A stretch of DNA of 64,000 nt from Actinomycetes bacterium (GTDB lineage: Bacteria; Actinomycetota; Acidimicrobiia; Acidimicrobiales; Bog-793), in assembly GCA_021798985.1 (NCBI GenBank), contig JAJZBI010000005.1, positions 1-64,000 of the forward strand, written 5' to 3'. Shown piece by piece: positions 34,597 to 49,897 of this stretch. The first letter of the stretch is position 1; every line of letters starts with the position of its first letter. The position numbers and the translations under genes were made by a program. The notes beneath the pieces are model-generated. The model had not been told where the DNA came from and ran no database searches. It saw nothing but the letters and a program-made list of their open reading frames with translations.

Positions 34597-35475
34597 TCAT
34601 CCCCGCAGACCGGTCGTCGAGATGCCCTCGAGCAACAGCCGCTGGAACGCGAGGAAGAACCCGAAGATCGGGAGCAAGGAGACGACCGACATCGCCAGGA
34701 GCTGGCCCCAGGACGACTGGCTCGTGCTGTCGACGAACGCGCCGAGGGCGACGGGGATGGTGAAGTGCGCCGGGTTGCCGCTCAGGTAGATGAGCTGGGA
34801 GAAGAAGTCGCTCCAGGTCCAAAGGAAGGTGAAGATCGCGGTGGTGGCGAGCGCCGGCACGCACAGCGGCAGGATGACCGTGGCAAAGAGCCGGAACTTG
34901 CCGCACCCGTCGATCTCCGCCGAGTCGTCGAGCTCACGGGGGATGGTGCGGATGAACTGGACGAGCAGGAAGACGAAGAACGCATCGACGGCCAGGAACT
35001 TCGGCACCACGAGCGGGGCGATGGTGCCGACCCAGCCGAGATACTTAAACAAGATGTACTGGGGCACGATCGTCGCGTGCAGCGGGAGCATGATGCTCGT
35101 CAACATGATGGCGAACAGGACCCGACGCAGCGGAAAGCGCAAGCGGGCGAAGGCGAAGGCGGCGAGGCTGCAGGAGACCAGGTTGCCGAGCACGCAGAGC
35201 AGGCAGAGGACGACCGAGTTGACGAGAAAGCCGGTCATCGAATAGCCGAGACCGTCCCAGCCCTGGGTGTAGTTGGAGAAGATCCAGGTCGTGGGCACGA
35301 TGCCCGTGGTCGAGAAGATCTGGCCCTCGGGCTTGAAGGACGAACCGATCATCCAAAGCAGCGGATAGAGCATCACGACGCCGCCCGCCGCGATCAACAG
35401 GCGCCCGATCCCCCGAGGGATGCGTCGCCACGCGAGGACAGCGGTCGCCGAGCGGCTTGGGGTGAGCCTGATCAT
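34597..35475 (-). CDS. Sugar ABC transporter permease, MalG/UgpE type
   Basis: A 292-residue carbohydrate-type (CUT1) permease: six membrane segments and the EAA-loop EIDGCGKFRLFATVILPLCVPAL that contacts the ATPase. ATGA overlap with the upstream permease. No ATPase gene is in the cluster, so a shared MsiK-type ATPase elsewhere in the genome is likely, as in many actinobacteria. Confidence 0.9.
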   Translation of the reverse strand: MIRLTPSRSATAVLAWRRIPRGIGRLLIAAGGVVMLYPLLWMIGSSFKPEGQIFSTTGIVPTTWIFSNYTQGWDGLGYSMTGFLVNSVVLCLLCVLGNLVSCSLAAFAFARLRFPLRRVLFAIMLTSIMLPLHATIVPQYILFKYLGWVGTIAPLVVPKFLAVDAFFVFLLVQFIRTIPRELDDSAEIDGCGKFRLFATVILPLCVPALATTAIFTFLWTWSDFFSQLIYLSGNPAHFTIPVALGAFVDSTSQSSWGQLLAMSVVSLLPIFGFFLAFQRLLLEGISTTGLRG

Positions 35476-36449
35476 GACTGGTGGTCCATGTAGAAGACCC
35501 AGCGCCTGGAACTGGCGAAGATGGCCGCGGTGACGAGCGCGATCGCGACCAGGAGCAGCCACGCCATCGCTGCGCCATAGCCCATGTTCAGCTGCCCGAA
35601 GGCTTGTTGGTACAGATACAGGGTGTAGAAGAGGGTGCTGTTGGCCGGCCCTCCGCTCCCGCCGCTGATCACGTAGGCCGGCGTGAATGCCTGGAAGGAT
35701 GCGATCACCTGCAGCACGAGGTTGAACAAGATCAGCGGGCTGAGCAGCGGCAAGGTGACCTTGCGGAACTGCGCGAAGCGCCGGGCGCCGTCCACGCTCG
35801 CCGCCTCGTAGAGCTCCTTTGGGATGTTGCGCAGCCCGGCAAGGAAGATGATCATCGGGGCGCCGAACTGCCAGATCGCGAGGACGACGAGGGTGTAGAT
35901 CGCGGTGTGGGGGTCGTCTATCCATGCCGGCGGGTTGTGCCAGCCAAAGAACTCGACGATGCGGTCGATCGTTCCGTCGTAGCCGAACAGGGTCCGCCAC
36001 ACGATCGCGATCGCGACGCTCGAGCCGAGCAGCGAGGGTACGTAGTAGATCGCACGCACGAGCCCGAGCGCCCGCATTCCCCGGTTCAGCACGAGCGCGA
36101 GCAGCAAGGCGAAGGCGAGCTGGGAAGGCACCGAGACGCCGACGTAAAGGAGCGTCACCTTGACTGCCGTGAGAAACAGTGGGTCGTGGACTAGCGCGCT
36201 GTAGTTGCTGAAGCCGGTCCACTGCGGCGCCGACAACAGGTTGTAGCGCGTGAAGGAGAGCCACAGCGAGGCGATCATCGGGCCGAGCGTGATCCCGATC
36301 AGGCCGAGGAACCACGGCGCGAGGAACAGGTATCCGGCGAGCGCCTCCCGTTGGCGTCGCGTCAGCCGGCGTCGCGGCGGTGGGTTGCGATCGGCAACGG
36401 GAGGCGGTGCGGTCGCGTGCGCCTCGACCGTCACGCCGGGGGATGCCAC
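35472..36449 (-). CDS. Sugar ABC transporter permease, MalF/UgpA type
   Basis: A 325-residue CUT1 permease with a 40-residue basic N-terminal tail, six membrane segments starting YLFLAPWFLGLIG, and the EAA loop EAASVDGARRFAQFRKVTLPLLSP. The GTG start immediately follows the stop of the binding-protein gene without any gap. Partner of the MalG-type permease. Confidence 0.9.
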   Translation of the reverse strand: MASPGVTVEAHATAPPPVADRNPPPRRRLTRRQREALAGYLFLAPWFLGLIGITLGPMIASLWLSFTRYNLLSAPQWTGFSNYSALVHDPLFLTAVKVTLLYVGVSVPSQLAFALLLALVLNRGMRALGLVRAIYYVPSLLGSSVAIAIVWRTLFGYDGTIDRIVEFFGWHNPPAWIDDPHTAIYTLVVLAIWQFGAPMIIFLAGLRNIPKELYEAASVDGARRFAQFRKVTLPLLSPLILFNLVLQVIASFQAFTPAYVISGGSGGPANSTLFYTLYLYQQAFGQLNMGYGAAMAWLLLVAIALVTAAIFASSRRWVFYMDHQS

Positions 36450-37805
36450 CTAGCTGAGCGCCCTGCGGGCGAGGCTCATTGCCTGTTCGGAGGCCTGGGA
36501 GATGCTCGAAGTGCCGAGCGCGATGTCCTGAGCGGCGTTTTGGAAGATCGACGTGAGTGCACCACTTTTGCCCGGAGCGACCGGCTCCGCGCGGGTGAGG
36601 GGACCGTACTCGGCTTCGAAGGCCACCTCGGCGCGATCCGATGCGGTGAGCCGCGGGCTGTGGAGCACCTCCTTCTCGTTTCGCACCGCTGCAGGAATCC
36701 CGCGCTCCACCCCGAGGGCACGCACGGCATGGGGATTGTTGACGCAGAAGTTGATGAAGTTCGCCGCGACCGTTGGTGCTTTGGAGTGGGCCGAGACGCT
36801 GAAGAACTGCGATGCCTGCACGAAGTCACCGACGAGCGATCCCTTGGGGCCGAGCGGGTAGCGGATGAGCCCCACCTTGTCTTTCATCAGCGGCTGGTAC
36901 TGACTCAAGAAGTTCGAGTACTGGAAGGTGAACACCGCCTGGCCGAGTACCAGGGGATTGCCCTCGTTGGTGCCGTTCTGGATCGACGCCGCCTCGAGCG
37001 TGCCGGGCACGATCAGGCCCTTGTTCCGGAGGTTTTGCCAGTACGAGAAGTAGTCCTCGAGCTCTTTCACCCCGAAGGCGAGCTGACCGGCCGGTGTGTA
37101 CATCCGGCGGTACTTCTGCAGGACCCAGACCGACATCACCGGGCCACCGGTCCCGCTGTTGTCGTCGCAAGGGTAGACGCCGCTCGGGAGCTTCTTCTTC
37201 AGCTCCTCGAGGTAGGATTCGAACTCGGCCCAGGTGTAGTTCTTCGGCGGTGGCTGCATGCCGGCCTTTTTGATCAGGGTCTCGTTGTAGACCACCGCCG
37301 GCATGTTGCCACCGAGCGTGACCGCGTACAGGTGGCGGTTCACGGTGCCGCCGAGGAGCTGTCCCGGGTCGAAGCCGGTGAGGTCGATGACCGAGCCGCC
37401 CTTGGCATGATCGGCCTTGTCGCCATAGGAGAGGTTGTCCAAAGAGAGCAGCTGGTGCTCGTCGGCGTACTCAGGAACATAGCTCCCACCGAGCTGGACA
37501 ACATCGGGAAGGTCACCCGCCGCGGCCTTGACGTTCATCGCGTCGAAGTAGTTGGAGAAGTCCGAAAAGAACGGGGTGACGTGCCATCCCTTGTGCTGCG
37601 ACTCAAAGAGCTTGATGACCTCTTCGGTGCGCGCGTCGCGCGTCGTCCCGCCCCACCAAGCGACCTGGATATCTGCCGACTTGGGGTACTTCACCCGCGC
37701 CGCGGAGCGGACGCTCGCCGAGGCGGACTGGCCGAGCAGCGGAGCGGCCGCTGCTGCCGCCGCCGTCCCGGCCGCGAGACGCAAGAAATCACGCCGACTT
37801 ACCAC
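36450..37805 (-). CDS. Tat-exported sugar-binding protein of an ABC importer
   Basis: A 451-residue extracellular solute-binding protein (family 1). A twin-arginine signal VSRRDFLRLAAG starts at residue 2 and an alanine-rich core follows. Binding-protein features include IQVAWWGG, KAAAGDLPDVVQLGGSYV and YNETLIKKAGMQPPPKNYTWAEF. The GTG has AAGGGGG six bases upstream; a longer frame would put 24 residues before the Tat motif. First gene of the glycan-use operon. Confidence 0.9.
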   Translation of the reverse strand: MVSRRDFLRLAAGTAAAAAAAPLLGQSASASVRSAARVKYPKSADIQVAWWGGTTRDARTEEVIKLFESQHKGWHVTPFFSDFSNYFDAMNVKAAAGDLPDVVQLGGSYVPEYADEHQLLSLDNLSYGDKADHAKGGSVIDLTGFDPGQLLGGTVNRHLYAVTLGGNMPAVVYNETLIKKAGMQPPPKNYTWAEFESYLEELKKKLPSGVYPCDDNSGTGGPVMSVWVLQKYRRMYTPAGQLAFGVKELEDYFSYWQNLRNKGLIVPGTLEAASIQNGTNEGNPLVLGQAVFTFQYSNFLSQYQPLMKDKVGLIRYPLGPKGSLVGDFVQASQFFSVSAHSKAPTVAANFINFCVNNPHAVRALGVERGIPAAVRNEKEVLHSPRLTASDRAEVAFEAEYGPLTRAEPVAPGKSGALTSIFQNAAQDIALGTSSISQASEQAMSLARRALS

Positions 37806-37921
37806 TTGACTCCCCCTTGGTCCATGCCGGCCTCCGAACAGCCCGCCGCGTGGCAGGCCGAGCACCCCCGCGCCCGGCACCTCGTGAGCTCTCCATCACC
37901 GACGTCTACCCGACTAGATTT

Positions 37922-37977
37922 GTTTCGGTGTGAAACGTACTCATCGGAAAGGTACCGGTGGGCCTCGGCGCCGTCAA
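37922..37977 (-). promoter_or_regulatory. Promoter and ROK operator of the glycan operon
   Basis: Minus strand: -35 TTGACG (37977-37972), 17 bases, -10 TACCTT (37954-37949), and the 15-base palindrome GTTTCACACCGAAAC (37936-37922) about five bases after the likely start. The palindrome also lies between the divergent ROK gene and its possible upstream elements, so one site may control both. Confidence 0.72.
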
Positions 37978-37985
37978 GGTGCAAC

Positions 37986-39257
37986 ATGAGGCGGGTGTCC
38001 GGAGACGAAGGGACGGCCACGTTGGCCTCGAACCAGATGAACGACCGCCGCGGTGCAGACCACCACAGCGTGCGTCTCGCCAACCTCAGCCTCGTGCTTG
38101 AAGAGCTCCGGCGGCACGGCCCGGCGTCGCGCGCCGAGATCGCGGCGCGCGTCGGCCTGGCGCGCCCCACGCTGACGCGGCTGGTCGGCGAGCTGTTGGA
38201 CCTGCGCCTGGTTCGCGAGGCGGGCCAGAGCGGCGGACGACCGGGGCGGCCGGGGACGATGGTCGAGATCGACGGGGCGCACGTCTTCGCCGTCGGCGCG
38301 GAGATCAACGTCGACGCGATCACGCTCATCGTTCACGATCTCGCGGGGACCGAGCGCGCCCGGCGGCGCGCGGCGCTTGATGCCCGGCGTGTCGGCCCCG
38401 AGGCGAGCGTGCGGCGGCTCGCCGCCTTGCTCGGCGACGCCGTCGCCGAAGCAGCTCGCCCGCTCGAGCGACCGCCGGAGATCGCTGGGTTCGCAACGGC
38501 GGTCCCCGGCCTCGTCGACGTCGAGGGAGGTCTGCTGGTAAACGCACCGAACCTCAAGTGGCAGCGGGTCCCCTTCGCCTCGCTGTTGCGCCATGCGCTC
38601 GGTTCGGACGACGTCACGGTCAGCATCGGCAATGACGGCAACTTCGGCGCGCTGGCCGAGTACTGGCGCGGTGGAAGCGCTGGTGCCCGCCACCTCGTCG
38701 CCATCATCGGCGAGGTCGGCATCGGCGCCGGCGCCGTCGTCGATGGGCAGCTCCTCACCGGATCGCACGGCCGTGCACTCGAGGTGGGCCACCTCGTGGT
38801 CGACCCGGGCGGCCCGCGGTGCGGTTGCGGTCGGAGCGGCTGTTGGGAGGCGATCGTCGGCCTCGACGCGTTCCTCTCATCGCTCGGCATGCCGGCGAGC
38901 GGGCGGCGCCCCGAGGCGTTGGTCAAACAGGTGGTGGCGCTCGCCCGTCGCAAGGACTCCGCAGCGCTGGCGGCGCTCGAGCGGCTCGGACGCTTCGTCG
39001 GGATCGGGGTTGCCAATCTGATCAATACCTTCGATCCCGACGTGGTGGTGCTCGGCGGCTATTTCACCCACGTCGCCACCTGGCTGCTGCCCGCCCTGTG
39101 GCAATGCGTCGAGGCTCAGGTGATCGTCACGGACACCCCCGCGGAAAAGCTCGTGGTGCCATCCAGCCTCGGCTTTCGGGCGGCGGCGCTCGGTGCGGCG
39201 CTGCACGCGGCCGAGGCGGTTTTTTCCAACCCGACGCTCTTCGCCCGTCCCAGCTGA
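37986..39257 (+). CDS. ROK-family transcriptional regulator
   Basis: A 423-residue NagC/XylR-type ROK repressor: N-terminal winged HTH (GPASRAEIAARVGLARPTLTRLVGELLDL) and a sugar-kinase-like domain with IGNDGNFGALAEYW, EVGHLVVDPGGPRCGCGRSGCWEA (the zinc CxCGxxGC motif) and NLINTFDPDVVVLGG. The phosphate-binding part of a true kinase (DxGxTK) is replaced by VGAEINVDAITL, so it is a regulator, not an enzyme. ATG at 37986 (AAGG upstream) was taken; 38037 is an alternative. Divergent from the sugar operon it likely represses. Confidence 0.88.
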   Translation: MRRVSGDEGTATLASNQMNDRRGADHHSVRLANLSLVLEELRRHGPASRAEIAARVGLARPTLTRLVGELLDLRLVREAGQSGGRPGRPGTMVEIDGAHVFAVGAEINVDAITLIVHDLAGTERARRRAALDARRVGPEASVRRLAALLGDAVAEAARPLERPPEIAGFATAVPGLVDVEGGLLVNAPNLKWQRVPFASLLRHALGSDDVTVSIGNDGNFGALAEYWRGGSAGARHLVAIIGEVGIGAGAVVDGQLLTGSHGRALEVGHLVVDPGGPRCGCGRSGCWEAIVGLDAFLSSLGMPASGRRPEALVKQVVALARRKDSAALAALERLGRFVGIGVANLINTFDPDVVVLGGYFTHVATWLLPALWQCVEAQVIVTDTPAEKLVVPSSLGFRAAALGAALHAAEAVFSNPTLFARPS

Positions 39258-42042: not shown

Positions 42043-45000
42043 CTATCGGCCGCGGCGCAAAGCCAGCGTGGGTCGGGCGCTGGCGCCGGGCACCTCGGCC
42101 TGTCGCTCGATGCTGCCCGGGCGCACCCCGATCGTCGAGGCGATGTAGGGCCACAGCTTGTGCTGCTCGTAGGGGCCGCCGAACAAGATGCCCTGCGCGT
42201 AGTCGACCCCCGAGCGCCGCAGCGCCTGCAGCTGGGCCTCGGACTCGGTCCCCTGGGCGATGATCGTGAGCCCGAGCCGGCGGCCGAAGGCGACGAACAT
42301 CTTCACGATCGCCTCGTCGGGCACCGAGTCGGTGAGCTTGGTGACGAAGGCGCCGTCGATCTTCAACACGTCGAGGGGGAGCTCCTCGGCGCCGGCGAAC
42401 GCCGAGTAGCCGGTGCCGAAGTTGTCGAGCGCGACCGCGACGCCGAGCTCGCGCAGCGCGGCGAGGCTCGCGAGCGCGCGTGCCGGGTCGCGCAGCACGG
42501 TCGATTCGCTCACCTCGAGCACGAGGCGGTAAGGGGCGATGCCGGACTGGGCGAGCGCCTCGCTCACGGTCGCGAGCAGGTCCTCGTGCTCGAGGTGGCG
42601 CATCGACAGGTTCACCGAGACCGTGAGGCGTGCCCGTGAGCGCTGCCAGCTCGCCGCGGTGAAGCACGCCTCGCGCAAGACGAAGCGGCCGAGGTCACGA
42701 GCGAGCTGGCTGCTTGACTCGGCGATTGCGAGGAAGTCCCGCGGCTTGACGAGGCCAAGGCGGGGGTGCTGCCAGCGCACGAGCGCCTCCATCCCACCGA
42801 CGCCGCGCTCGTCGAGCTCGACGATCGGCTGGAAGAGGATCCGCAGCTGGCCATAGGCGATCGCCCTGGCGAGCTCGTCCTCGAGGCGCATGCGCTCGCT
42901 CGCCACCTGCTGGGGTGCGCGGGTGAACGCCGCGGTCCGGTCGTGCTCGTCGCCCCGGGCCAGCGACCGGGCGAGCTGGGCGCGGCTGAAGAGCTGCTCG
43001 GCGGTCCCGTCGGCGAGCTCGGCGACGCCGATCACCGGATTGACGCGGTGGCTCAAGCCGCCGAGCACGAAGGGGTCCGCGAGGGCGTCGCGCACGCGCC
43101 CGGCCACCGCGTCGGCGCTTGGGATGGGCGAGCGGTCGTCGAGGACGACCGCGTAGGTGTGCTCGTCGAGTCGCCCGACGGCTTCTGGATCGCCGACGGC
43201 GCGCCGCAGCCGGCGGGCGATGGCGAGGGCGAGCTCGGCGCGATGGCACTCAGCGCCCGCCTCGGCGGCCGGCGCTGGGGTGTCGAGCTCGATCACGAGC
43301 GCTGCGCAGCGTCCCGCGCGCTCGCGGGCGTCGGCGAGCAGCTGCTCGGCGCGGCGCACCATGAGGGCGCGGTTCGCGAGCCCCGAGTGTGGGTCGCGTG
43401 GCGGCTCGGCGCGCCCGCTGGCGTGCTCGGCACGCGGTGGGGAGATCTCGGCCATCGCCCCGGCGAGGAACTGGGCCACCGAGGGGGGCCCGGGCAGCGC
43501 GATCGCCTGCCAGCGGGCCCAGCGCGTGCTGCCATCGGCGGCCCGCACCCGGTGCTCGGAGGAGAACAGGCTGCTCTCGCCCGTGAGGCAGGCGTGCAGC
43601 TTCGCCACAACGACGGGTCGGTCGTCGTCGTGGACCTCGGCGAGCCAGTCGTTGACGCCAACGCACGTCCGGCTCCCGGGCGCCGGCGCATCGAGGCTGA
43701 CCGTCCCGGCCGCGACGTCATAGGAGAACAAGGTGGTGGCTTTTGCACGCGGCACTCCGCTTGGCGCCGGGGCCGCGACCTCACCAGGCGATCCGCCGAG
43801 CGCGGCGGGGAGCGCGAAGGCCGAGGGGGCGCGGCGCTTGTTGACGAGCGCTGTCGTGAGCATCTCGGCGAACGAGAACGCCACGTCGTCGCCGTCGTGC
43901 TCGGTCGCCTCCAGCGGGCCGAGGATGGCGAGCGCGCCGAAGTCGTGCTCGGGCGTGCGCAGCGGGACCACGGTGGTGACCTCGCCGTCCTGGGCGAGGT
44001 CGAGGAGCGGCGGGGGAGGGAAGTGCTCGGCGGCCACGACGGTGCCCACCTCGAGCAGGCTCCGGCGCTCGTTGTGGTAGACGGCGCGGATCTCGAGCTC
44101 GCCGAGGCGGGCGTCGTCGTCGCGCCACAGCGCGACCAGCCCGGCGCGCACGCTCGTGCGGCCGAGGAGCGCGAGGCGAGGGGTACGCGGGTCCTCAAAG
44201 CGCAACAGCGCCGGGTCGAGCTCGCTCGCCTCCCGAGCGGCCACCTGGTGCTCGGCGGGCGACAGGACGCGGCGCGAGATCGCGATGGCGAGCGCGTTCA
44301 ACAGCCGCTCGCGCGCCGGCGCGGGCGCCACGGCCACGGAAGCGGCGAGGGACCCGGGCAGGCCGGTGGCGTAGGCGCGCCCGGCCGCCAGGATCTCGGC
44401 GACCTGCTCGAGGCGGGTGAGGCCGGAGCCCAGCTGCCCCGCCAGTGCCTCGACGGCGCCGGCGTGGGTGCCGGCGGGGTCGTCGATCGCCCCCAGCAGC
44501 TGCTCGATTGGTGCGTCGATCTCCCCGAGGGGTGCCAGCCCGGCGGCCTGGTAGCACCCGAGCAGGCGCTTGCGCGCCCGCTCGCGCGGCGTGGCGCTTG
44601 GGCCGGAGGCCGCCTCGCCCCCGTGCGGGCCACAGCCACAAGACGAGCGGCGCACGAAGGTCGTGGGCACCCGGGTGATCGGTGCCAGCGCCTCGACGCC
44701 GTGTTCGGCGGCCGTCGCCAGCACCCACAGCGCGCTGGCGCCGAGCAGCCCGAGGTCCTGGTGCACGCTCGAGAGCGACCAGCTGGCGCTCCTGGCCGCG
44801 GCGATGTCGTCGAAGCCCACCACCGCCAGGTCCTTTGGGACGACCAGGCCCGCCTCGCGCACCACGCCGATCAGGCCGATGGCCACCTCGTCGGTCGCTG
44901 CGACCACGGCGCTCGCCGGCATGCCGGCGCCGAGCAGCGCGCGCCCGGCCGCCGCGCCCGCCGCCACGCTGTTCTCGCGCAGCTCGATGAAGCCCGACTC

Positions 45001-45645
45001 CTCATCGGCGCGCAGGCCGAGCTCGAGCAGCGTGGCGAGGTAGGCGTGGTAGCGCTCGCGCAGATCGTCGCTGTTGAGCGCCCCGACGAAGGCGAGGTCG
45101 CGATGGCCGTGGTCGCCGACGAGGTGGGCGACCGCCGCCTCGATCCCGCCCCGGTTGTCGGCGCTGATCGTGAGGGACTCGGCCACCTCGTCGGCCTGAC
45201 CGACGCTGACCACCACCTTGCCGGCCTGGGCGTAGCGGGCCAGGCGTTCGGCCTCGGCGGCGCCCTCGAGGACGATGACGCCGCACAGCGCGTCGCCGAG
45301 CGGCGGCGGGACCCCGGCGGTCGGGCCGCGCCGGGAGCGGCTGGAGGGTGTGGCATCGAGCGTCTGGGCGGCGATGATGGAGAGCCCGGCACTCGTCGCG
45401 GCGGCGCGCACGCCCGAGAGGACGCCCGTCGCGAAGCGGTTGCCGAGCGCGGGGGCCAAGACGGCGACGGTCGGGCGGTCGAGGCCGACGAAGCGCCGCG
45501 GCGCCAGGTGCGCGACATGGCGCGCCGCTGCCGCGTACTCCTCCCATGCCGCGCCGAGATCGGCTGCCATGTGCGAGCTATCGGTCGCCGCAAGGCCGGC
45601 CTTGAGCCCGTCTCGCTCAGCCCAGGATGCGGGGCGCTCGCTCAC
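42043..45645 (-). CDS. LacI-like sensor with degenerate GGDEF and variant EAL domain
   Basis: A 1200-residue cytosolic protein. Residues 55-330 form a LacI/periplasmic-binding-type sensor without HTH (PTVAVLAPALGNRFATGVL, CGVIVLEG, VVGFDDIAAAR), ending in SCGC at 335-338. A GAF-like or helical linker and a PAS-like segment (near 640-720) follow. The GGDEF site reads RLDEHT, so no cyclase activity is expected. The EAL domain (about 925-1175) has EALVRW at 953, SVNLS, LEVSES and LKIDG, but DDFGTG is DNFGTG (N1075) and AEGVE is AQGTE (1130-1134). Phosphodiesterase activity is therefore uncertain. GTG overlaps the preceding GGDEF gene (GTGA). Confidence 0.85.
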   Translation of the reverse strand: MSERPASWAERDGLKAGLAATDSSHMAADLGAAWEEYAAAARHVAHLAPRRFVGLDRPTVAVLAPALGNRFATGVLSGVRAAATSAGLSIIAAQTLDATPSSRSRRGPTAGVPPPLGDALCGVIVLEGAAEAERLARYAQAGKVVVSVGQADEVAESLTISADNRGGIEAAVAHLVGDHGHRDLAFVGALNSDDLRERYHAYLATLLELGLRADEESGFIELRENSVAAGAAAGRALLGAGMPASAVVAATDEVAIGLIGVVREAGLVVPKDLAVVGFDDIAAARSASWSLSSVHQDLGLLGASALWVLATAAEHGVEALAPITRVPTTFVRRSSCGCGPHGGEAASGPSATPRERARKRLLGCYQAAGLAPLGEIDAPIEQLLGAIDDPAGTHAGAVEALAGQLGSGLTRLEQVAEILAAGRAYATGLPGSLAASVAVAPAPARERLLNALAIAISRRVLSPAEHQVAAREASELDPALLRFEDPRTPRLALLGRTSVRAGLVALWRDDDARLGELEIRAVYHNERRSLLEVGTVVAAEHFPPPPLLDLAQDGEVTTVVPLRTPEHDFGALAILGPLEATEHDGDDVAFSFAEMLTTALVNKRRAPSAFALPAALGGSPGEVAAPAPSGVPRAKATTLFSYDVAAGTVSLDAPAPGSRTCVGVNDWLAEVHDDDRPVVVAKLHACLTGESSLFSSEHRVRAADGSTRWARWQAIALPGPPSVAQFLAGAMAEISPPRAEHASGRAEPPRDPHSGLANRALMVRRAEQLLADARERAGRCAALVIELDTPAPAAEAGAECHRAELALAIARRLRRAVGDPEAVGRLDEHTYAVVLDDRSPIPSADAVAGRVRDALADPFVLGGLSHRVNPVIGVAELADGTAEQLFSRAQLARSLARGDEHDRTAAFTRAPQQVASERMRLEDELARAIAYGQLRILFQPIVELDERGVGGMEALVRWQHPRLGLVKPRDFLAIAESSSQLARDLGRFVLREACFTAASWQRSRARLTVSVNLSMRHLEHEDLLATVSEALAQSGIAPYRLVLEVSESTVLRDPARALASLAALRELGVAVALDNFGTGYSAFAGAEELPLDVLKIDGAFVTKLTDSVPDEAIVKMFVAFGRRLGLTIIAQGTESEAQLQALRRSGVDYAQGILFGGPYEQHKLWPYIASTIGVRPGSIERQAEVPGASARPTLALRRGR

Positions 45646-48347
45646 GCGCCGGGCGCGGCGAGGTCCGTCGGGGGCCGGCCGAGTGCCACGTAGCGGTTCT
45701 TGCCGGTGTTCTTCGCCCGGTACATCGCGACATCGGCGTCGCGCAGCAGCTTCAATGCGCTCCCGTCGGCGGCCCATGCGGCGCCGATGCTGGCGCTGAT
45801 CGTGAGGGTCGCCTGGGGCAGGACGATCGGTCGGGCGATGGCGGCGCGTGCCCGCTCGGCGACGTCGGCCACGTCCGCACGGTTGTGGGTGGGCTCGAGG
45901 AGGACGACGAACTCGTCGCCGCCGAGACGGCCCACGTGGTCGCCGGCGCGCACCGCCTCCTCGAGACGCCGCGCCACCTCGATGAGCACGGCGTCGCCGA
46001 CGTCGTGGCCGAGGCCGTCGTTCACCGTCTTGAAGTCGTCGAGGTCGACGAAGAGCGCCGCGACCTGTCCCGTTGCGCGCGCCCGGGTCAGCAGCTCCTC
46101 GGCTCGCTCGAGGACCCAGGCGCGATTCGGCAGTCCGGTGAGCGGGTCGTGGTTCGCCTGGTGCCACAGGCGCTGCTCGAACTCCCACTGCAAGGTGATG
46201 TCGGCCGTCGAGCCAACGATCCGCCGCGCCGGGCTCGGCGCTCCCGGCACGGCAAGGGCGCGGGTGCGCGCCCAGCGCCAGCCGCCGTCGGCGGTGCGCA
46301 GCCGGTGCTCGAGGGACAGCGAGCTCTGCTGGCCGGCGATGCAGGCCGAGAGCGCCGTGGACAGCGCCGGCCGGTCCTCGGGGTGGATGCGCTCGATGAG
46401 CTCGTCGGGGCCCGAGCCGAGCGCCGTCTCGCCGACGAGCTCGTGCCAGCGCTCGGAGTAAAAGACGGCCCCGGTCGTGAGGTCGTAGTCCCACAGCGCG
46501 TCGCTCGTCGCCGCCACCGCCAGCGCGTAGCGCTCCTCGCTCGCCAGCAGCTCGCCTTGTTGGTGGCGCAGCTCGGCCTGCTGGCCGAGCAGCGAGTTGG
46601 TGAGCTCCGCCTGCTCGAGCGCGGCGGACAGCTGGGCCGCGCACTGCAGGTAGGGGTCGCGGCCGATCACCGAGGTCAGCTCCAGCTTGGTCACGAGCGC
46701 CAGCAGGCCCCAGTGGCGCTGCTCGGACTGCACCGGCAGCACGGCGACCAGCTCCCCCTCCTCGGGTCGGGCGCAAGCGACGAGGCCCTCGGGTGGGAAG
46801 GACTCGGCTGGGCAGTGCTCGGGCAACAGCAATGGCGCCTCGCCGTCGCGGGCGAACTGGCCGAGGATCTCGAGCGCCCCGCTCGTGCCGTCGCGCTCTG
46901 GCCACAGGCCGAGGCAGGCAAGGCGCGCCGGGGTGCGGGCGAGGAAGCCGAGGGAGGTCGCCTGCTTGCGATCCGCTGTGAACAGCTCCATCGCGATGAA
47001 GTACTCGTCGCGCAGCGTCTTGCCGAGGCGGCGCCGCTCCTGGCTGTGGCGGGCGGCGATCTCGGCGGACAGGGCGAGTGCGAGGCGCGTCTCGAGCTGC
47101 TGTTGGGCGAGCGCGCGTACGGCGGGCTCGCCGGTCGTGGCGATCGCCTCCCCGTAGCGCGCAACGAGCTCGAGGACCTGGGGCACCTGCTCGAAGCGGT
47201 GCAGGCTCGGCCCGAGGCGTCGCGCCAGGTGCCCGACGGCCCCTCGATCGGCCGCCTCGGGTGCGCCGATCGCGTCGGCGAGCGCGCCGATCGCGTCGGC
47301 GAGGTCGCCACGCTCGGCTGTGGACCCCCCGTCACGGACCAGTCCGGCGAGCGCTCCGACGAACTCCTCGCGCCGGGTCGGCCCGAACGCGCGCGCCGCC
47401 ATCGCTTGATCCAGGCTGCACCCGCACGAGGTGCGGCAGACAAAGCGCGCCGGCAAGCGGTGCTGGCCGGCCGCCGGGGCCTCGCCCCGCAGCGCGCCGT
47501 CGAGCAGCTCGAAGGCCCGCCGCCCGAGCTCGGCGAGGTCCTGGCGGACGGTCGAGAGCTGGACGGAGGGTGCGCTCGCCTCTTCCATGTCGTCGTAGCC
47601 GACGACGGCGACGTCACCGGGGACCGAGACGCCAGCCCGGCGCAGCTCTTCGATCAGCCCGAGGGCGTTGTAGTCGGTGGCGGCGACGATCGCGTCGAAG
47701 GGGACCCCGCGCGCGAGGAGCTGGCGCCCGGCGCTTGCTCCGCCGCGCTCGACGAGGTCGTCGGCCTCTACCACCCAGTCGGGCTCCGGGGTGATGCCCG
47801 CGGCGCGAAGCGCCTCGCGCCAGGCGGCGAGGCGCTCGGTGATGTCGTCTTGGACGGCCCGGCCGACGAAGGCGATCCGGCGGTAGGCGTGCGTGTTGAC
47901 CAGGTGCTCGATCGCCGCGGTGATCCCCGAGCGGTTGTCCGAGCTCACGACGGGCACCTCGAGGCCGGGCACCGCCCGGGCCACGCTCACGACGGGCCGG
48001 CCGCTGTCGGCGATGGCCTTGAGGTAGGCCGGCTCGACGGCCGAGACGAGAGCGATCACCCCCTCGGCGTGCTCGAGACCGACGTGCAGGCGGTAGTCGG
48101 GGGAGTCGGTCTGGTCCTCGAGGTTGGAGGAGACGGGCTCGAGGGTCTGCACCGCCACGATGCCGAACCCCGCCTCGCTCGCCGCGGCGCGGATCCCAGC
48201 CATGACGCGGGAGAAGAAGTTCGCGGCGAGCAGCGGCGACAAGACCGCGATCGTGCGACGGCGCGTCGCGTCGAACGCGCCGTCTCGGCGTGCCGCGCCC
48301 GGGGCTGGGGCGAGGCGACGCGTGGACCACGTCACCCCCGTTGTCAC
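45642..48347 (-). CDS. LacI-like sensor diguanylate cyclase
   Basis: A 901-residue cytosolic protein matching its neighbour in layout. Residues 30-300 are a LacI-like ligand domain (RTIAVLSPLLAANFFSRVMAGI, VVGYDDMEEAS), followed by CRTSCGC (SCGC at 307-310), a helical region, a PAS domain (about 600-715, ERYALAVAATSDALWDYDL, SERWHELVG) and an intact GGDEF at 809-813 in RLGGDEFVVLL. RAGD at 800-803 is the product-inhibition I-site at its normal five-residue distance. It should make c-di-GMP, probably under control of a small ligand such as a sugar. GTG at 48347 looks leaderless. The reading frame stays open upstream into a transporter relic. Confidence 0.88.
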   Translation of the reverse strand: MTTGVTWSTRRLAPAPGAARRDGAFDATRRRTIAVLSPLLAANFFSRVMAGIRAAASEAGFGIVAVQTLEPVSSNLEDQTDSPDYRLHVGLEHAEGVIALVSAVEPAYLKAIADSGRPVVSVARAVPGLEVPVVSSDNRSGITAAIEHLVNTHAYRRIAFVGRAVQDDITERLAAWREALRAAGITPEPDWVVEADDLVERGGASAGRQLLARGVPFDAIVAATDYNALGLIEELRRAGVSVPGDVAVVGYDDMEEASAPSVQLSTVRQDLAELGRRAFELLDGALRGEAPAAGQHRLPARFVCRTSCGCSLDQAMAARAFGPTRREEFVGALAGLVRDGGSTAERGDLADAIGALADAIGAPEAADRGAVGHLARRLGPSLHRFEQVPQVLELVARYGEAIATTGEPAVRALAQQQLETRLALALSAEIAARHSQERRRLGKTLRDEYFIAMELFTADRKQATSLGFLARTPARLACLGLWPERDGTSGALEILGQFARDGEAPLLLPEHCPAESFPPEGLVACARPEEGELVAVLPVQSEQRHWGLLALVTKLELTSVIGRDPYLQCAAQLSAALEQAELTNSLLGQQAELRHQQGELLASEERYALAVAATSDALWDYDLTTGAVFYSERWHELVGETALGSGPDELIERIHPEDRPALSTALSACIAGQQSSLSLEHRLRTADGGWRWARTRALAVPGAPSPARRIVGSTADITLQWEFEQRLWHQANHDPLTGLPNRAWVLERAEELLTRARATGQVAALFVDLDDFKTVNDGLGHDVGDAVLIEVARRLEEAVRAGDHVGRLGGDEFVVLLEPTHNRADVADVAERARAAIARPIVLPQATLTISASIGAAWAADGSALKLLRDADVAMYRAKNTGKNRYVALGRPPTDLAAPGA

Positions 48348-48352
48348 GCCCC

Positions 48353-48358
48353 AGATAA
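48353..48358 (-). promoter_or_regulatory. -10 element of the sensor cyclase gene
   Basis: TTATCT on the minus strand ends five bases before the GTG at 48347, the spacing expected for a leaderless message. TTCAAG about 18 bases further upstream is a possible -35. Confidence 0.5.
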
Positions 48359-48489
48359 CGGCACCCTGCCGCCGAACTTGAACCCGAAATCGGGACGAAT
48401 GGCGCAGAAAATCAGGGAGATACGGGCGACATGCGCGCGCTGCGTGGCGTAATTCGCCAACAACAGCGCGCAGCGTGGCGGCTGGTCGC

Positions 48490-49897
48490 TCAGGCGTGCT
48501 CGGCGGTGCCAGCCGCGAGGCCCGGCGCTCGAACAGCTGGGTGATCTCGTCGACCGCGCGCCCCTTGGTCTGTGGCAAGAAGCGGCGGACGAAGCCGATC
48601 GCGAGCACGCACAGGGCGGCGAAGCAGACGAGCACCCAGCTGAGGCCGATCCCCGCGTTCCAGACCGGGAAGACCTCCACGAGCGCGAAGTTCGCGAGCC
48701 AGTCGGCCCTCGCGCCGGTGGCGGCCGCCCGGCCGCGCACGGCCGTCGGGAACACCTCGCCCTGCAGCAGCCACCCGGTGCCCCCGACTCCGATCGCGAA
48801 GGACGAGATGAACAGGCACAGACCGATCATCACGACGACGGTCCGCCCGGTGCCGGACAGCCAGGCGAGGCCACCGGCCGCGAGGAGCGCGAAGACCGCC
48901 ATGCCGACGTAGCCGCCGAGCGCCAGGCGACGCCGGCCGATGCGATCGATGTAGCGGAAGCCGAAGTAGGTGGACGCGACGTTGACCGCCGTCAAGATGG
49001 CCGTCACCTCGACGCCCGCCGTGGTGACGGCGACCTTGGAGCTGCCGGACTGGAGCAGGTGGGGGCCGTACTAGAGGGGCACGTTGATGCCGGTGATCTG
49101 CTGGAAGACGAAGTAGCCGCAGATGACGACGAGGGCGCGGCGCACCCCGATGCTCCAACGGCCCGAGCGGCGCCTGCGCTCGGCGCGCGCCTCGTCGAGT
49201 CGCCGGGCGCTCACCTCGAGCTCGCCCGTCGCGACCTCGAGCCCGAAGCTCGACAAGGCGGCGCGCGCCTGATCGAAGCGGCCGTGCTGGAGCAGCCAGC
49301 GGGGGGACTCGGGCATCTCGGCGCGCAGGATCAGCCCGGCGAGCGCCGGCAGCGCGCCGAGGCCGAGGAACAAGCGCCAGTCCACGCTGTTGGCGCTGCC
49401 GGGAGCGACGCGCAAGACGTCAATCGCCACGATGTAGGCGAGGAGGATGCCGACGGTGATCATCCACTGCTGGAGCATGCTGAGCGAGCCCCCCGGTCCT
49501 TCGGGGCGTACTCGGCGATGTAGGCCGTGGCGATCGCCGAGTCGGCACCGATCGCCACGCCGATCAGGGTGCGGGCGATGAGCAGGACGGCGGCATCGAG
49601 CGTGACGGCGGACAAGAGCGCGCCGGCGGCGTAGATCCCGGCGTCGACGACGAGCAAGACCTTGCGGCCGAAGTGGTCGGTGAGGGGCCCGGCGACGATC
49701 GCGCCCGCGGCTGCGCCGAGCGAGGCGCCGGCCACGAGGTAACCCTGGGCGAAGCCACTCAGGTGCTCGGGGGTGAAGTTGAGCGCGGAACCGATGTTCG
49801 AGGTGTCATAGCCGAACAAGAAGCCGCCGAGCGTGGCGAGCAAGGTGAGGCGCCAGGAGAACGAGCTCGGGACGTGTTCGTCGAGGTCGGCCAGCAC
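48490..49897 (-). pseudogene. Broken MFS sugar-porter gene
   Basis: The three pieces together make a sugar-porter-type MFS transporter: residues from [21 protein letters not shown] to [11 protein letters not shown], then [20 protein letters not shown] to GYFVFQQITGINVPL, then YGPHLLQSGSSK to RRFLPQTKGRAVDEITQLFE. A base is missing from a run of six C near 49489-49494, and TAG at 49071-49073 stands where the family has tyrosine (VPLYYGPH). The natural stop also seems lost, since the frame runs on into the cyclase gene. Three lesions make a sequencing artefact unlikely as a full explanation. Confidence 0.85.

Follow-up and report, generated by a model that had tools for sequence, protein, structure and literature searches.

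A LacI-type receptor pair with a conserved Cys-His triad at the sensor exit: a predicted diguanylate cyclase and a probably non-hydrolysing paralogue

What does a LacI-type ligand domain do when it is followed by c-di-GMP domains? According to a 2022 review (PMC8846402), PBP/LacI-type inputs are common in c-di-GMP proteins, where their function is mostly untested, and the LacI-like Periplas_BP domains in such proteins are without a validated function. The question is raised by two adjacent genes of a soil-type Acidimicrobiales bacterium (assembly GCA_021798985.1, contig JAJZBI010000005.1), located in a window of 64,000 nucleotides, i.e. the whole stretch of DNA that was analysed. A preliminary description of the locus had proposed that the encoded proteins, here termed p1 and p2, make and remove c-di-GMP, respectively, in response to a small molecule, possibly through a metal or redox centre at an SCGC motif present in both.

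Translation of the locus confirmed two adjoining reading frames of 901 and 1200 residues, with GTGA as their 4-nt overlap (Table 1). The Pfam matches were Peripla_BP_3 (residues 147–308), PAS_3 (628–710) and GGDEF (731–885) in p1, and Peripla_BP_3 (178–336), PAS_3 (664–716), a weak GGDEF (751–892) and EAL (923–1158) in p2, and the LacI helix-turn-helix (HTH) domain, PF00356, gave no match in either protein at E-values up to 1. Thus, the LacI/PBP-type domain without an HTH and the PAS-like and c-di-GMP domains described earlier are all found in both proteins. The two are paralogues (34% identity across 884 residues, E = 2e-99), and their alignment bore out the equal position of SCGC, which is in register. 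The pair is likely the product of a tandem duplication. The sister grouping of p1 and p2 is weak (61/81), both sit on long branches (2.19 for p2 versus 1.01), and p2 might be decaying.

The MFS gene of the Sugar_tr type upstream of the pair is, as had been noted, broken: its fragments lie in different frames, and one of them ends at TAG. The 3' part (48348-49007) is in frame with p1 with no intervening stop, so that a frame of 1121 residues spans both, probably because the stop codon of the transporter gene has decayed. A sugar ABC transporter (solute-binding protein and permeases) adjoining a ROK-family regulator lies a few kb away, at positions 34597-39257 of the contig. About 15 kb from the pair, an ordinary HTH-containing LacI repressor runs from 63311 to beyond 64000 (L016:832-2274); it has SCGC, the equivalent of His153 of p1 and a tail of 95 residues after SCGC.

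Table 1. Features of the p1/p2 locus (positions in the window; aa, residues of the respective protein).
Feature	Position	Strand	Basis or remark
p1, 901 aa	45642..48347	-	LacI-type sensor, SCGC, helical and GAF transmitter, PAS, GGDEF; start GTG
p2, 1200 aa	42043..45645	-	p1-type sensor and transmitter, PAS, dead GGDEF, degenerate EAL; start GTG
GTGA, overlap of p1 stop (TGA) and p2 start (GTG), 4 nt	45642..45645	-	
p1 LacI/PBP-type sensor without HTH, aa 28-306	47430..48266	-	Pfam, structural alignment
p1 His153, third triad residue	47889..47891	-	co-occurrence with CGC
p1 SCGC, aa 307-310 (Cys308, Cys310)	47418..47429	-	paralogue and relative alignments
p1 transmitter (helical bundle, GAF-like domain, long helix), aa 311-615	46503..47417	-	AlphaFold, Foldseek, hhalign
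p1 PAS, aa 616-716	46200..46502	-	Pfam, AlphaFold model
p1 GGDEF domain, aa 731-885	45693..46157	-	Pfam
p1 GGDEF motif, intact, aa 809-813	45909-45923	-	
p1 I-site RAGD (RxxD), aa 800-803	45939-45950	-	five residues upstream of GGDEF
p2 LacI/PBP-type sensor, aa 56-334	44644..45480	-	Pfam, alignment to p1
p2 His179, counterpart of p1 His153	45109..45111	-	paralogue alignment
p2 SCGC, aa 335-338	44632..44643	-	alignment
p2 helical and GAF transmitter, aa 339-632	43750..44631	-	
p2 PAS match, aa 664-716	43498..43656	-	Pfam PAS_3
p2 degenerate GGDEF, aa 751-892	42970..43395	-	weak Pfam match
p2 RLDEHT (aa 825) replacing GGDEF	43156-43173	-	alignment
p2 EAL domain, catalytically degenerate, aa 923-1158	42172..42879	-	Pfam and alignment
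p2 Asn1075 in DNFG, position of RocR Asp296	42421..42423	-	alignment; PMC7911125, PMC5301497
p2 Gln1131 in AQG, position of RocR Glu352	42253..42255	-	alignment; PMC7911125
Broken MFS Sugar_tr-type transporter gene upstream of the pair	48510..49897	-	

The AlphaFold model of p1 (mean pLDDT 86.7) showed that the sensor has the LacI fold, since over its entire length it aligned with the effector domains of LacI, CcpA and Thermobifida CelR (PDB 5ysz) at Z 24–26 and 22–37% identity. The pocket Arg and Asp of the LacI/GalR family are also kept in sensors of the p1/p2 type: R172 and D225, which align with pocket residues of LacI, are invariant in the fusions and D252 is present in 83%. Unlike that family, the pair lacks the HTH, carries C-terminal signalling domains, and has CGC and His153 (H153) in place of the usual RxST and LGH. 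On the strength of this relationship, the sensor probably binds a sugar or glycoside inside the cell. In two metagenome-assembled genomes, a GH94 glycoside phosphorylase gene lies directly downstream of a homologue (L104:9549-12011 and L105:6515-8836), and in Cellulomonas biazotea the neighbours of another (L113:98-2713) include a GH6 cellulase and an HTH LacI repressor, which hints at beta-glucosidic ligands for these homologues. Circumstantial as they are, LacI ancestry and the GH94/GH6 neighbours of relatives are a better basis for a sugar ligand than the broken MFS gene, from which the preliminary description had drawn the same conclusion on weak grounds.

SCGC is more than a coincidence: both of its cysteines were invariant in 18/18 first-round sequences, one of which reads TCGC. 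The motif occupies the site at which most LacI proteins end with RxST. A search of the kind proposed earlier, for proteins combining a PBP-type domain, SCGC and GGDEF/EAL, retrieved relatives, and the composite receptor (PBP domain, SCGC, helical and GAF-like region) was found in at least five phyla, with GGDEF, EAL, HD-GYP, histidine kinase, MCP, SpoIIE or LuxR-HTH outputs. SCGC is present in histidine kinases of Chloroflexi, in SpoIIE, HD-GYP, MCP and LuxR-HTH proteins, and in some HTH repressors, being a minority feature among ordinary LacI repressors. We therefore rejected the possibility that it is a c-di-GMP-specific motif: rather than marking c-di-GMP pairs, it is part of a receptor module that is combined with many kinds of output, and it also occurs in some plain repressors.

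In a Pfam-based sample from Chloroflexi-type and Spirochaetota-type genomes, SCGC was found in 26/28 fusions (two of the 28 being duplicate loci) and in 0/61 stand-alone repressors; the pooled non-redundant set gave 56/61 and 17/174, respectively. Three of the five exceptions among the fusions are another kind of fusion, that of an HTH-LacI repressor with an aldehyde dehydrogenase, and with these set aside SCGC is present in 56/58 signalling fusions. The fusions form nearly one clade, with 4–6 changes on the tree, so many of them may simply have inherited SCGC, and the tree contains too few independent pairs to show an association of SCGC with fusion beyond ancestry.

Two kinds of protein met in these searches deserve separate mention. 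Three relatives from the same family encode, in one frame, a complete HTH LacI repressor fused to an aldehyde dehydrogenase, with the domains identified by Pfam in one (L102:5285-8308) and by similarity in the others (L100 and L266); it is uncommon for a repressor to be fused with an enzyme. In Spirochaetota-type genomes, a cytosolic LacI-SCGC receptor carries an MCP signalling domain, confirmed for L339:856-3237 and attributed to its close relative L340:675-3089; these proteins are possibly soluble chemoreceptors for an intracellular ligand.

To judge by named relatives such as L103 and L124, the source genome belongs to an Acidimicrobiaceae-like group of Actinomycetota. In its family, the architecture was found in 11/35 genomes, mostly as a single protein with both GGDEF and EAL, and as the cyclase only in one genus group. 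Two genomes of the same genus lacked it, one of them just 68% complete. Relatives were also seen in genera such as Cellulomonas, Promicromonospora and Catellatospora. When 396 Actinomycetota genomes were searched with strict settings and three candidates per genome were scored, the full architecture was seen in the source genome only, a weak negative. The plasmid search matched the PAS-GGDEF part only, viral contigs gave two weak loci, and a 36-residue consensus query for solved structures with the motif returned only two chance matches, both snake toxins.

When fusions were contrasted with stand-alone repressors, H153 stood out beside the two cysteines (95% versus 11%); it stands where LGH usually has its Leu, and many members therefore read HGH. 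Among the stand-alone repressors, H153 was found in 17/17 sequences with CGC and in 2/157 without it, and in the pooled sensors in 77/77 and 5/195, respectively, in a collection whose stand-alone members had in part been gathered with patterns containing HGH, most of those with CGC through H153+CGC profiles or patterns. Of all columns compared in the stand-alone repressors, only H153 tracked CGC (1.00 versus 0.01), with D168 doing so partly. Sampling was repeated with a core-only query containing neither the His nor the Cys residues and with further Pfam-listed sensors. The 50 new non-redundant sensors showed H153 in 3/3 with CGC and in 1/47 without (chance approximately 2e-4), bringing the totals to 80/80 and 6/242. 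On the best tree, 13 disjoint pairs differed in CGC; H153 followed in 9–10 of these and opposed in none, the CGC-negative member of the remaining pairs still having the His. With well-supported branches only, the tree test of the coupling was underpowered (median p 0.25).

In the sensors examined, CGC was thus never seen without H153. This is support, though not proof, for a metal or redox site of the Cys2His type formed by H153, Cys308 and Cys310 at the sensor exit, and gives the centre proposed in the preliminary description an indirect backing. No fourth metal ligand was found. A third conserved Cys, located before xVSSDN in Acidimicrobiaceae relatives, was discarded as a candidate, as it is missing from p1 and p2 and is not general. 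One repressor (L456:481-1557) combines His153 with SCGQH in place of CGC, possibly an alternative ligand set of Cys and His. By the LacI topology, the helix that precedes strand RIAFVG would end with H153, on that pole of the C-subdomain which faces away from the cleft. The final strand would run from the hinge to this pole, where SCGC begins; from this we infer that H153 is close to CGC in space.

The possibility exists that SCGC and H153 reflect structure or lineage alone and involve no metal or redox chemistry, with the cysteines aiding the packing of the C-terminal strand. The near-single clade of the fusions is consistent with this, as is the finding that many LacI repressors have the first Cys alone (25% of the CGC-negative stand-alones have Cys at 308), but in several phyla the second Cys and H153 also come as a pair in stand-alone repressors, a pattern that no other column shows. 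We consider this explanation unlikely, while giving it appreciable weight. It is also conceivable, though improbable, that the CGC cysteines act as a thiol-disulfide redox switch for which His153 is the base, and that the receptors read the redox state as well as the ligand. A Cys-x-Cys pair with a conserved His would suit such a role, and the motif occurs both in anaerobe-rich groups and in aerobes; however, the cytosol is reducing, and in the homologue neighbourhoods that were checked no redox partner gene was recognised.

The stretch between SCGC and PAS, in which the preliminary description had overlooked a GAF-like transmitter, has no Pfam match, and none to GAF in particular. VIA-align and Foldseek searches with the full model were swamped by the LacI and GGDEF domains, and the middle region of p1 was therefore folded separately. 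The resulting AlphaFold model (pLDDT 89.4) consists of a helical bundle, a GAF-like domain and a long helix, and the top Foldseek matches of approximately residues 408–615 were mostly GAF or phytochrome GAF domains (E from 2e-4), indicating a GAF fold. The top Foldseek match to p1 was the bacteriophytochrome-diguanylate cyclase 5llw (589 columns), which, like other GAF-helix-GGDEF receptors and p1, leads from GAF through long signalling helices into GGDEF; in p1, a LacI-type domain, a helical bundle and PAS replace the PAS-GAF-PHY photosensor. Transmitter homology among Spirochaetota, Bacillota, Chloroflexi and Myxococcota was detected by hhalign at 97–99.9%. The Actinomycetota transmitter matched that of Chloroflexi at 93% (E = 2.5e-7), and its direct hhalign comparisons with Spirochaetota, Bacillota and Myxococcota were not significant. 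As judged from these profiles, the p1 transmitter is homologous to the Chloroflexi module and, via Chloroflexi, to the Spirochaete modules. Because the fusions form a near-single clade and the transmitter is homologous across phyla, the receptor module seems to have spread with exchange of its outputs.

The genome has 22 GGDEF and 17 EAL matches, and c-di-GMP signalling is well represented in it. The GGDEF domain of p1 is complete (PF00990, 145.8 bits), and its GGDEF signature and RxxD inhibitory site (RAGD), the latter dispensable for activity, are intact, as had been reported; p1 should be an active diguanylate cyclase subject to feedback inhibition. In p2, the dead GGDEF (RLDEHT) and the presence of an EAL fold domain (PF00563, 211.9 bits) were likewise verified. 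The earlier account had missed that this EAL domain is degenerate: DDFG has become DNFG and AEG has become AQG, and all EAL-bearing relatives aligned keep DDFG and AEG. Residues of p2 were related to RocR numbering by a constant offset from the EAL motif. The metal ligands of RocR are E175, N233, E265, D295, D296 and E352 (PMC7911125), and in PA3825 the second Asp of DDFG binds the M2 magnesium (PMC5301497). In p2, N1075 and Q1131 stand for D296 and E352, so that the full set is not present, and p2 is not expected to hydrolyse c-di-GMP because these two equivalents are lost. It is very unlikely that p1 and p2 are opposed enzymes making and degrading c-di-GMP in response to the same ligand: p2 retains the E of EAL, the Asn, the second Glu, the first Asp and the Lys of the active site, and single-chain relatives bear GGDEF and EAL with their motifs intact, but the D296 and E352 equivalents are lost only in p2.

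We therefore abandoned the phosphodiesterase as the leading view of p2, which should not be annotated under that name. Contrary to the earlier proposal, p2 probably does not remove c-di-GMP, although, with the other EAL active-site residues remaining, it may hydrolyse it weakly; p2 is likelier to serve as a receptor for c-di-GMP or as a regulatory partner than as a phosphodiesterase. The GGDEF and EAL motifs of p2 are both degenerate (RLDEHT, DNFG, AQG), and p2 resembles the degenerate GGDEF-EAL receptors of the LapD and FimX type in combining a dead GGDEF with an EAL that is not expected to hydrolyse. In contrast with these, p2 has preserved the EAL signature itself, and its input domain is of the LacI type.

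Taken together, p1 and p2 would be cytosolic one-component receptors whose two-lobed LacI-type domain binds a small molecule. Closing of the lobes would be relayed through the SCGC exit to the helical bundle and GAF-like domain, from there to PAS, and finally to the output, which in p1 would be an active, feedback-inhibited diguanylate cyclase. His153, Cys308 and Cys310 would together make up a single site on the C-subdomain, at its distal pole. The best candidate is a metal staple (Zn or Fe), with a redox switch as the alternative. Either would hold the C-terminal exit against the sensor, coupling hinge motion to output, and would influence the way in which lobe closure is passed to the next helix; in p1, this would determine the activity of the cyclase. 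Having kept the sensor, triad and transmitter, p2 would most likely be a catalytically dead partner of p1 that binds c-di-GMP or forms a hetero-oligomer with p1. As a whole, we regard this scheme as evenly poised between right and wrong.

In the literature searched, which covered few subscription papers, there was no account of SCGC (nor the term ‘SCGC motif’), of the His partner or of the shared transmitter, nothing on a LacI metal site, and no paper pairing Peripla_BP_3 with GGDEF. The Peripla_BP c-di-GMP proteins of PMC8846402 are alike in architecture class, and the accessible part of that review names neither the Cys motif nor the His partner nor the transmitter; p2 differs from the proteins described there in that both of its output domains are degenerate. 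Thus, LacI-type domains in c-di-GMP proteins are already known, and the triad and the shared transmitter appear to be undescribed, as far as this weak evidence goes.

A signature of three mutable residues, in a soluble family extending across phyla and outputs, makes the question of how these receptors signal directly testable, and a dependence on metal or redox state would be predicted for some ordinary LacI repressors as well. We tentatively propose, at somewhat less than an even chance, that a large branch of LacI-type proteins, comprising repressors and receptors with many outputs, has gone unrecognised and has a Cys2His metal or redox centre at the sensor exit, here controlling a cyclase and its dead regulatory paralogue. 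If this is true, a well-studied ligand domain would have a second input, or a metal staple required for signal relay.
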